Below are positions 30,564-33,090 of a stretch of 64,000 bases of DNA, piece by piece. The stretch is from Candidatus Hydrogenisulfobacillus filiaventi. Its GTDB lineage: Bacteria; Bacillota; Sulfobacillia; Sulfobacillales; R501. The notes beneath the pieces are model-generated. The model made no database searches. It worked only from the letters and a program-made list of their open reading frames with translations, and had not been told where the DNA came from. Both the position numbers and the translations under genes were made by a program. Positions within the stretch are counted from its first letter, which is position 1; each line of letters opens with the position of its first letter. The stretch is from positions 868,001 to 932,000 of the forward strand of contig LR778114.1 in the NCBI GenBank assembly GCA_902809825.1, read 5' to 3'.

Positions 30564-30580
30564 CGACGGCTTTACAGCAA

Positions 30581-30610
30581 CGCCCGGGATCCCCGCAGGG
30601 ATCCCGGGCG
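30581..30610. terminator. Hairpin between convergent cydC and surface-protein gene
   Basis: A 13-base perfect stem (CGCCCGGGATCCC with GGGATCCCGGGCG) and a CGCA loop lies between the two converging genes. No T-run follows on either strand, so it may end transcription weakly or stabilise 3' ends. Confidence 0.5.
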
Positions 30611-30629
30611 TCCGCTTGGCGGGCCCGGT

Positions 30630-31550
30630 TCAGCGGGCCAGCAGGCGCCGCCGGTTCCAGGCATAGAGCGAGCCGCCGCCGCCGAGCAGGGTGAGTCCGC
30701 CCAGCAGGCTGCCCCAGAGGCCGACCCCGGTCTCCACCGAGGTGGCGCCGGCCACATCCGAGGCCTTGGTGGCTGCGTGCGCGGCGGTGGGATCGGCCGA
30801 GGCCGACACGCTGCCGCTGCCGGTGCTGGAGGTGCTGACCGTGGCGGCCGGGGTCTGCGCCGAGGCGCTGCCCTCCACGGTGGCCTGGCCCTGCCCGCTG
30901 GCGGAGGGGGTGGACGCGCCCAGACCGCCCAGGGCGCCGGTCAGGCCGCCGGTGATCCCCCCCAGGCTGCCCGTCACGGTGTGCAGCAGGCCGCCGGTGG
31001 TGTTGAGCAGCTGGCTGGTGGTCTGACCCGCCAGGCCGCCGACCGCCCCTACGGTGCTGGTCAGATTCTGGGCGGTGTCGGAGACCGCCCCGGTGACCGC
31101 CGGGACCGCGCCCAGGGTGGTGTTGAGCACCGCATCGCCGGTGGAGCCCACGGCGTTGGTCAGGTTACCGACGGTGCCGACTTCGTTGCCGACCGCATTG
31201 ACGGCGGCCGAAGTGGCGCCTTCCGCCGCCGAGCCGACCGTGGAGACCACACCGGGAACGGTGGACACCACACTGGAGGCCACCGGGCCCACCACCGGCA
31301 CCTGGGAAACGGTGGAGGCTACCGGGGTGGTGACGGCGGAGGTGAGGTTGCCCACCGTGTTCACGGTGGTGTCGACGGCGGACTGGGCGGTGGAGCCCAC
31401 GGTGCTGGTCAGGGAGCCCAGCGTATCGGTGAGGGCGCCGGTCAGGGAGCCTAAGGGACCGCTGGAGGCGAAGGCGGGGGTGGCGGCCAGGGTGCCGGCG
31501 GCCACCACGGCGGCGGGCAGGACCGTGTAAAGACTGTGGCGCAGTTGCAT
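30630..31550 (-). CDS. Secreted low-complexity surface protein, probable sortase substrate
   Basis: A 306-residue protein with a Sec signal (LPAAVVAAGTLAATPAFA, cleavage after AFA). The body is a long Ser/Thr/Val/Gly-rich repeat of units like GNLTSAV and STVGSTAQSAVDTTVNTVG. The end has SVETG, a hydrophobic stretch (GLWGSLLGGLTLLGGGGSLYA) and a basic tail (NRRRLLAR), the layout of a cell-wall sorting signal although the motif is not LPxTG. It lies 40 bases behind a sortase gene in the same direction, so I infer it is that sortase's substrate. ATG 31550 is preceded by AGGAGG. Confidence 0.72.
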   Translation of the reverse strand: MQLRHSLYTVLPAAVVAAGTLAATPAFASSGPLGSLTGALTDTLGSLTSTVGSTAQSAVDTTVNTVGNLTSAVTTPVASTVSQVPVVGPVASSVVSTVPGVVSTVGSAAEGATSAAVNAVGNEVGTVGNLTNAVGSTGDAVLNTTLGAVPAVTGAVSDTAQNLTSTVGAVGGLAGQTTSQLLNTTGGLLHTVTGSLGGITGGLTGALGGLGASTPSASGQGQATVEGSASAQTPAATVSTSSTGSGSVSASADPTAAHAATKASDVAGATSVETGVGLWGSLLGGLTLLGGGGSLYAWNRRRLLAR

Positions 31551-31590
31551 ATCTGGATTCCTCCTGTTCGGATACAGCTGACCCCGCCGG

Positions 31591-32643
31591 CTAACCGGCG
31601 GGGGTGAGCGACCAGCCGGCCAGGGCCAGCCGGCCGGAGCCGGCGGGCCGCGTCGCCAGGCTGACGGTGTAGTCGCCGGTGCCGTCCGGCCCGGTGACCT
31701 CCAGGGTGGTTGTGAGCCGGGTCCCGGTAATGCGGGTGCCGTCGACCGTCTCCCGGATGTCGGCCGGGGCCAGGTAGCGGACCACCCGTCCCTTCCAAAG
31801 CGGTCCCAGCACCGCCGGGCTCAGGTGAGGGGCCAGGCGGGCCCACCAGCCGGCATTCCCGGCGGCGGCGATGTGAACGCCCGCCAGGAAGAGGGTGGTG
31901 GTGGCGGAGGCGGCCGACAGGGGCGCGTTGCTGGCGCTCCAGGTCGGGGAGGGATGGCCCTCGACCGCCAGGGTGCCCATGGGCAGGTCGTTGGTGGCCA
32001 GGGTCAGCCCCTGGGCCCGCACTGCTGCTGGAATGCCAGCGGCATGGACCGCGAAGCCGCCCGGCCAGGCTGCCGGCGGCAGGCCGTGGGCCAGCCGGGT
32101 GGTGGCAGTGAGGTCGGCGTAGACCAGGAAGCGGTAGGGGGTGAGGTAGAGGGCGTTGAGCGGCCAGCACGCCACCAGCAGCAGCTGGGGATGATGAGCG
32201 TTGCGGACCGGACTGCCCTCCCGCACCACCTCCGTGCGGCTGACCCGGAAGGTATAGAGCCGGTCCGGGGTGCGGATGAGGACGCGGCTGCCCTTGTGCA
32301 GCCGGTTGAGGTGATGGAACCAGGTCACGTCGTGACCGGCCAGCACTGCCGTGCCGGTCTGCCCCGGCCAGACCGACGTCGGCAGATGGCCGACCGCCCG
32401 ATCCAGCTGGGCGTTGCCGGCTCCTTGCACCACTGGGGCCACCAGGCGGATGGCCGGAATCTCGATCTCCTCGCGCAGGCCCTGAGGCCAGCCGGCACCG
32501 GCGAGCGGGGGCAGGGCACCCAACAGGGACCGGCCCTGCCACCAGCTCCGCAGCAGGAAGGCCGGGAGCGTCGCCAGCAATCCAATCCCTACGACGATTA
32601 ACCCCAACGCCACAATGCGGGTTGCATGGGCATAGACCTTCAC
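31591..32643 (-). CDS. Sortase with C-terminal extension
   Basis: A 350-residue sortase: N-terminal membrane anchor (RIVALGLIVVGIGLLATLPAFLL), then the catalytic barrel with His in AVLAGHDVTWF, Cys in LLLVACWPL and Arg in LTPYRFLVYADL, in the right order. It attaches proteins with a sorting signal to the cell wall. Beyond the Arg, about 145 extra residues of unknown fold follow, with a beta-rich end (TTTLEVTGPDGTGDYTVSL); most class D/E sortases end soon after Arg. GTG 32643 (AGGTGTGATTCT upstream) is preferred; GTG 32697 is a longer alternative. Confidence 0.85.
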   Translation of the reverse strand: MKVYAHATRIVALGLIVVGIGLLATLPAFLLRSWWQGRSLLGALPPLAGAGWPQGLREEIEIPAIRLVAPVVQGAGNAQLDRAVGHLPTSVWPGQTGTAVLAGHDVTWFHHLNRLHKGSRVLIRTPDRLYTFRVSRTEVVREGSPVRNAHHPQLLLVACWPLNALYLTPYRFLVYADLTATTRLAHGLPPAAWPGGFAVHAAGIPAAVRAQGLTLATNDLPMGTLAVEGHPSPTWSASNAPLSAASATTTLFLAGVHIAAAGNAGWWARLAPHLSPAVLGPLWKGRVVRYLAPADIRETVDGTRITGTRLTTTLEVTGPDGTGDYTVSLATRPAGSGRLALAGWSLTPAG

Positions 32644-33090
32644 AGAATCACACCTCACACCGGGCCGGATGCTGCGCAAGAAGAACGTTTCCGGCACTCA
32701 TGTTGCATGAAGTGCTTCCTTCCCGGATAAAAAATTTTCGACAAGAGACGGGAAGCATGTCGAATCGTGATCGCCGGAAACCGGCGCGGGGCGCGGGTTA
32801 CCGGTCGGTGGGCGCCTCGATATGTCGAAATATGGCGAATAGCGCGGAGAAGATGGAACCATCGTCCGCCCGCTCTGAAAGGGGGAAGCGAAAAACACGA
32901 TGCGGAGATGAGGGAGGCAACACCGCAACAACGTCAGGGTCTTTCGCAAAACACGCAGGGGAAAACCCGGGAGCGGGAAAATCCCGGAAAGCGGGCCGGA
33001 ACCTTCCTGGCAGCAACGTCCCGGCCCGGTCCGGATGCTGTCCGGGAGCGTGGCCGCCGTGGGGGGCGCGCCGTCACGGTTTTCACCGGC
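32644..33090. other. Gene-poor stretch with 10-base tandem repeats
   Basis: About 450 bases contain no convincing gene on either strand. It is less G+C-rich than the genes around it, with A-runs (AAAAAATTTTC near 32729). A tandem repeat ATATGTCGAA-ATATGGCGAA lies at 32820-32839 and an inverted repeat CGACA...TGTCG near 32740-32763. These may be control sites for the divergent sortase and small-ORF genes. No known riboswitch was recognised. Confidence 0.4.

Follow-up and report, generated by a model that had tools for sequence, protein, structure and literature searches.

An extended sortase beside a non-LPxTG sorting signal: a putative enzyme-tag system in Candidatus Hydrogenisulfobacillus filiaventi and related bacteria

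Does a sortase with a long extra C-terminal domain serve a sorting signal of its own? The question is raised by two adjacent genes of Candidatus Hydrogenisulfobacillus filiaventi, a lineage that we take to be linked to Sulfobacillus-like bacteria. The genes lie in a stretch of 64,000 nucleotides (assembly GCA_902809825.1, contig LR778114.1, positions 868,001 to 932,000), here called the window. Both open reading frames (ORFs) and their coordinates agree with an earlier note made from the same DNA. The putative substrate gene lies 40 bp downstream of the sortase gene on the same (minus) strand, and the pair is flanked, by eye, by cytochrome bd genes (cydA, cydB, cydDC) and by mraZ-rsmH-ftsL. 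The features, in window positions, are:

31591..32643, minus strand: extended sortase gene, GTG start, 350 aa
32554..32622, minus strand: membrane anchor at the N-terminus, residues 8-30 (by eye; the structure model has a helix at 3-42)
32332..32334, minus strand: codon of catalytic His104 (from the alignment)
32167..32169, minus strand: codon of catalytic Cys159 (LVACWPLNALYLTPYR)
32131..32133, minus strand: codon of catalytic Arg171 (from the alignment)
31594..32109, minus strand: C-terminal extension, residues 179-350
31594..31923, minus strand: NTF2-like core predicted within the extension, residues 241-350 (structure model)
30630..31550, minus strand: putative substrate, a secreted low-complexity protein of 306 aa
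31467..31550, minus strand: signal-peptide-like N-terminus of the substrate, residues 1-28 (by eye)
30921..31454, minus strand: substrate body, residues 33-210, its 99.6-degree hydrophobic periodicity unbroken
30726..30740, minus strand: SVETG motif of the tail, with the T-G bond as the predicted cut site
30633..30725, minus strand: hydrophobic stretch and basic end NRRRLLAR

The numbering of the catalytic residues starts at the GTG at 32643; another GTG, at 32697 in the same frame, offers a 368-aa sortase ORF as an alternative. A perfect inverted repeat with 14-bp arms and a loop of 4 bases was seen by eye at 30580-30611, in the gap that separates the substrate gene from the cyd genes; it is absent from the output of a terminator scan of the window.

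The larger gene product is best read as a predicted sortase-superfamily enzyme, a cysteine transpeptidase anchored in the membrane. Residues 78-196 of the 368-aa ORF match Pfam Sortase (PF04203) at E 1.2e-23 and 83.7 bits, the cut-off being 26.6, and TIGR01076 scores 49.4 against a cut-off of 39.35. Cys159 and Arg171 are invariant in 26 aligned sequences and His104 is kept in at least 90%, which bears out the full His-Cys-Arg set proposed earlier. The structure model of the full protein (pLDDT 52) is interpretable for the sortase part only. The nearest class by sequence, according to NCBIfam, is D (PDB 2ln7, B. anthracis SrtD; 4d70, C. perfringens SrtD), and class D models match all 26 aligned extended sortases. 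The window enzyme differs from this class in its extra C-terminal domain and in scores that reach 46% of the curated cut-off of NF033746 (76.3 of 165 bits) and 58% of that of NF058671 (80.6 of 140 bits); the cut-off of the class E model NF033747 is likewise not reached (54.6 of 160 bits). The signals differ too. PMC4498605 gives LPNTA or LPQTGS as class D partner motifs, whereas partners of extended sortases carry ATS(P/V)xTG, in the window SVETG. No tail of the LPx(T/S)(G/A) form, which takes in the LPxTA type of class D, was found in 40 loci with an extended sortase, either among 269 adjacent ORFs or among 1573 other ORFs.

The remainder of the protein had been described as an extension of about 145 residues; a long extra domain is indeed present, at a length of 172 residues after the sortase domain. 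Pfam matched no family to the window extension, and a scan of 27 extensions gave five families, each through one weak member. A PDB sequence search with the extension gave no accepted match, one standing at E 0.4. The model of residues 196-350, which rests on a four-row alignment, has a pLDDT of 60 (about 60-84 across the last 105 residues) and a pTM of 0.58, and shows three helices followed by five strands. Its best structural match among those listed is 3fsd (Z 9.0, rmsd 2.4, 96 aligned), matches within Z 1 counting as tied; all 50 of the 50 listed are presumably NTF2-like or cystatin-like, judged in part by title. The NTF2-like domains of TcpC and TraM (PDB 3ub1 and 3wz3), conjugation proteins of the cell envelope, resemble the extension in its predicted fold (Z 7.9 and 8.0) but are not fused to a sortase, and where they align with it the identity is 9% and 3%. 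The extension is probably an NTF2-like domain, as modelled, and it is conserved in three clades of extended sortases. Relatives were sought in viral contigs and none was found; none of the catalogues searched gives such an extra domain for sortases, and in open-licence literature, searched as full text, no description of a sortase with such an NTF2-like or C-terminal-extension architecture appeared among the papers listed.

The adjoining secreted protein had been credited with a sorting-signal layout in which SVETG replaces LPxTG, and this stands: its tail reads AGATSVETG-VGLWGSLLGGLTLLGGGGSLYAW-NRRRLLAR, and signal peptide (by eye), motif, hydrophobic stretch and basic end are all present. 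The degenerate DNA pattern AT(S/T/C)(P/V/A/L)xTG has 19 matches in the 2.57-Mb genome. Just 4 of these, the window's included, lie 34-40 residues before a stop and precede a hydrophobic stretch and a basic end, and the window tail is therefore more than chance. The profile of family tails matches it at E 8.3e-11, the window tail itself being 1 of the 20 profile rows. Gram_pos_anchor (PF00746) gave nothing over its cut-off genome-wide, and the window tail is outside its 12 matches at E up to 10. An LPxTG DNA pattern was uninformative in this genome, with 51 forward and 71 reverse matches against 118 and 73 in the reversed control and thus no excess.

Is the arrangement conserved? We examined 42 extended sortases, namely the 40 loci of the pairing count, the window and L035. 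A sorting-signal ORF lies at most 400 bp away in 32 of the 40 loci, 27 times with an S/T/A/D-P/V-x-T/A-G core and 5 times with HTGxPW. Only 2 of the 1573 other ORFs of these loci pass as sorting-signal ORFs, and one of them is the L046 partner, 694 bp from its sortase. The earlier note had named a lack of conserved pairing as one outcome that would count against a dedicated pair; the pairing is conserved. At the other loci, the tail of L111 is partial and lies at a contig end, a GATSPVTGKPF protein lies 7-9 kb from the extended sortase in L037, L038 and L039, a protein with a tail of this type sits on a separate contig in L063, and no tail was found in L040 or L042. The genome of L035 has a GATSPVTGKNF protein on a different contig, a weak match (E 0.38) that was accepted once its sequence had been read. 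The SPVTG protein is thus non-adjacent to the sortase in four clade A relatives. Tail matches (E up to 1e-5) occur in 28 of 154 genomes of the class and an extended sortase in 27 of those 28, G034 being the exception; since the profile derives from tails that adjoin these sortases, the matches are partly circular, the absences less so. A comparison is offered by six short sortases that lack the extension (L064, L066-L070). Beside four of them (L064, L066, L067, L068) stands a protein with LPVTA or LPVTG, two of these cases being near-identical; the other two lack a neighbour of this kind. By eye, the short sortases of L066, L067 and L068 adjoin LPVTA-tailed proteins and glycosyltransferase-like genes.

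The consensus of the family tails is ATSPxTG followed by hydrophobic residues, often LP, and one clade of extended sortases has HTGxPW tails. SVxTG stands adjacent to the sortase in the window and L053 only, and L043 has DVHAG. The expectation of an xVxTG-type tail beside each extended sortase was therefore not borne out, and SVETG as a family-wide motif is ruled out by the dominance of ATSPxTG. Within the window genome, a profile built from three of its tails and that of L053 finds GATSVETG (window), GATSVETG (C1:1424167), GATSVTTG (C1:973544) and, from outside the profile rows, GATGVTTG (C1:268882); it also matches, weakly, the SPVTG tail beside a second extended sortase of this genome. All four [SG]VxTG proteins are of low complexity and two have a 19-residue repeat. 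From its sequences, SVxTG in this genome is a signal class of its own, part of a set and a departure from the SPxTG of the family. Because three further [SG]VxTG proteins lie elsewhere in the genome, and because of the four clade A relatives with a non-adjacent SPVTG protein, the pair is probably not one-to-one. Two other SVxTG proteins (L123:2231-3151 and L124:2661-3449, both minus strand) lie directly beside secreted proteins that end, by eye, in a 3D-type domain of cell-wall enzymes. Of the dedicated pair with its own motif that had been proposed, what stands is a conserved non-LPxTG neighbour; exclusive pairing is weakened and a family-wide SVETG falls away. A non-LPxTG signal beside extended sortases makes a sortase with its own signal class a good reading, and extended sortase and unusual tag likely form a new, putative enzyme-tag system.

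The catalytic domain varies as well, since the residue two before the Cys differs: most extended sortases have Glu there, but Val takes its place in the window, in L053 and in family f27 (L110-L115), as Ile or Val does in the HTG clade. Glu is absent in 7 of 8 loci with a non-Pro motif, L043 retaining it. The six f27 loci also lack Glu, yet their five readable tails carry SP or TP. Loss of Glu tracking the non-Pro motif is a lead only, and these lineages are non-independent.

The extension profile matches at least 4 of 398 genomes in a sample of the phylum (4/4 in the window's class). Within the class it matches at least 31 of the 154 genomes, and the 42 genomes of the order account for 21 of them. 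Both counts are lower bounds because the profile missed the extended sortases of G485 and G487, which were recovered beside tail proteins; in addition, the initial pass of the search scores only so many candidates. The extended sortase of L035 is in a contig titled Actinomycetes bacterium, and its assignment outside the class is possibly a binning error. The tree splits into three: group A (window, L041, L043, L035, L037-L040), the clade with HTGxPW tails, and group B, the remainder, which includes the second extended sortase of the window genome. It was built without L042 (truncated) and without L126 and L127, which are counted among the 40 loci; L053, L106, L040, L049 and L062 were trimmed beforehand, and broken copies in G037 (C144) and G010 (C1:993260) were not counted as loci. 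L106 and L062 are near-identical sortase loci from genomes of different assigned families (G507, G003), which suggests transfer or mis-binning. A clade B extended sortase in L063 (G027) lies directly by mraZ like that of the window, in a different orientation. The extended sortase of L034 lies by a membrane protein (L034:6343-8475, minus strand) matching Pfam DUF2079 at E 1.4e-10 (L034 alone was scanned), and clade A sortases of relatives adjoin large membrane proteins with a beta-rich C-terminal end (L034, L038-L040, L035:2836-4821). By eye, an anti-sigma-like gene is close to the pair in L036, L044 and L054, and a sigma-factor-like gene also in L036 and L044, which suggests envelope-stress control.

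What would be displayed? Over residues 33-210 the hydrophobicity of the substrate body repeats at 99.6 degrees per residue with no phase slip, and 6 of 178 residues are charged. The moment is 5.83, where 2000 shuffles reach 3.54 at most; the ends of this segment had been picked to maximise the moment, a choice the shuffles did not have. For the fixed segment 29-215 the moment is 5.41, the 95% value of the shuffles being 2.68. The sequence points to a long amphipathic helix, uncharged on its Thr/Ser/Asn/Gly face. A heptad coiled coil was rejected, as it needs 102.9 degrees. The suggestion that the repeat-rich body forms a surface layer or fibre fits this long-range periodicity and goes no further than fit; the body may perhaps act as a surface film, coat or fibre. 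Besides the window protein, a search of 154 genomes for relatives of the body gave one match only, to residues 217-302 near the tail, and a Baculo_PEP_C Pfam match (E 0.0084, below cut-off) was attributed to composition. Among the other partners, the L058 body is ice-binding-like (PF11999, E 2e-54), the L041 body is propeller-like below cut-offs, and the rest have no family. Sortase-dependent hydrophobic surface proteins are also known as long chaplins and, in Actinoplanes missouriensis, as the wall proteins CwpA and CwpB (PMC13251363); the sortase there differs in being class E.

We propose that the extended sortase cuts and anchors ATS-P/V-x-TG proteins, helped by its extension, an explanation we consider fairly probable from the domain layout, conservation, pairing and motif classes. 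The enzyme would cut between Thr and Gly in C-terminal signals of this form and would join the cut protein to the cell wall. Clients of the window sortase would be the adjoining amphipathic protein and the other [SG]VxTG proteins, and the SPVTG signal would be handled mainly by the second extended sortase, while either of the two could serve either tail type. The extension would help to choose or hold the signal class or its proteins. Clostridioides difficile SrtB is a class B sortase and, to our knowledge, has no such C-terminal extension. Its (S/P)PxTG signals resemble that of the window in having Ser for Leu and differ from its SVxTG; in PMC4371152, SPKTG was cut and NVQTG was not, and for this reason cleavage of SVxTG cannot be assumed.

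Our view of the extension itself is tentative. It may be a substrate-selecting module, the sortase reading a longer signal (ATS-P/V-x-TG plus flanks) with which it co-evolved; equally tentatively, the signals would then form a series, SPxTG for the most part, HTGxPW in one clade and a Pro-to-Val switch in four proteins of the window genome. Somewhat doubtful in our judgement is a role in localisation or partner binding (wall, lipid II, division or glycosylation machinery), the catalytic domain alone reading the motif. The cleavage of SPKTG by SrtB, the Val or Ile for Glu before the Cys, and the placing of some extended sortases by DUF2079 membrane proteins (L034) or mraZ (window and L063, by eye) are consistent with such a role, whereas the joint presence of extension and non-LP motif in every tail-bearing locus seen, and the LP motifs of short sortases in the same class (though only four), argue against it.

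The 40-bp spacing on one strand, and the SPVTG neighbour that the second sortase has for itself, would also suit a window sortase that serves its neighbour only, the remaining [SG]VxTG proteins then being clients of the second sortase or not anchored. This seems improbable, given three other tails that share GAT(S/G)VxTGV with the window tail and match the SVxTG profile at E 6.3e-12 or better (two of them profile rows). Least credible, and strongly disfavoured, is a degenerate second sortase domain born of duplication. A short look-alike (LAGVHIAAAGNAGWW vs LAGHDVTWFHH) was noticed by eye; profile-profile comparison of extension and catalytic domain gives a probability of 0.5%, which indicates that the extension is no duplicated sortase, and the model has helices then a sheet as in NTF2, not a sortase barrel.

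Cleavage of SPxTG, by C. difficile SrtB, and sortase-dependent hydrophobic proteins, in Actinoplanes, have precedent (PMC4371152, PMC13251363). The means by which sortases tell almost identical signals apart are so far only partly clear. Extended sortases are a natural enzyme series in which one extra domain and matching tag shifts make it testable whether a separate domain sets specificity, and they could give LPxTG-orthogonal enzymes for protein ligation. If the extension is a substrate selector, they would make up a new class of sortases, with domain layout as its defining mark.
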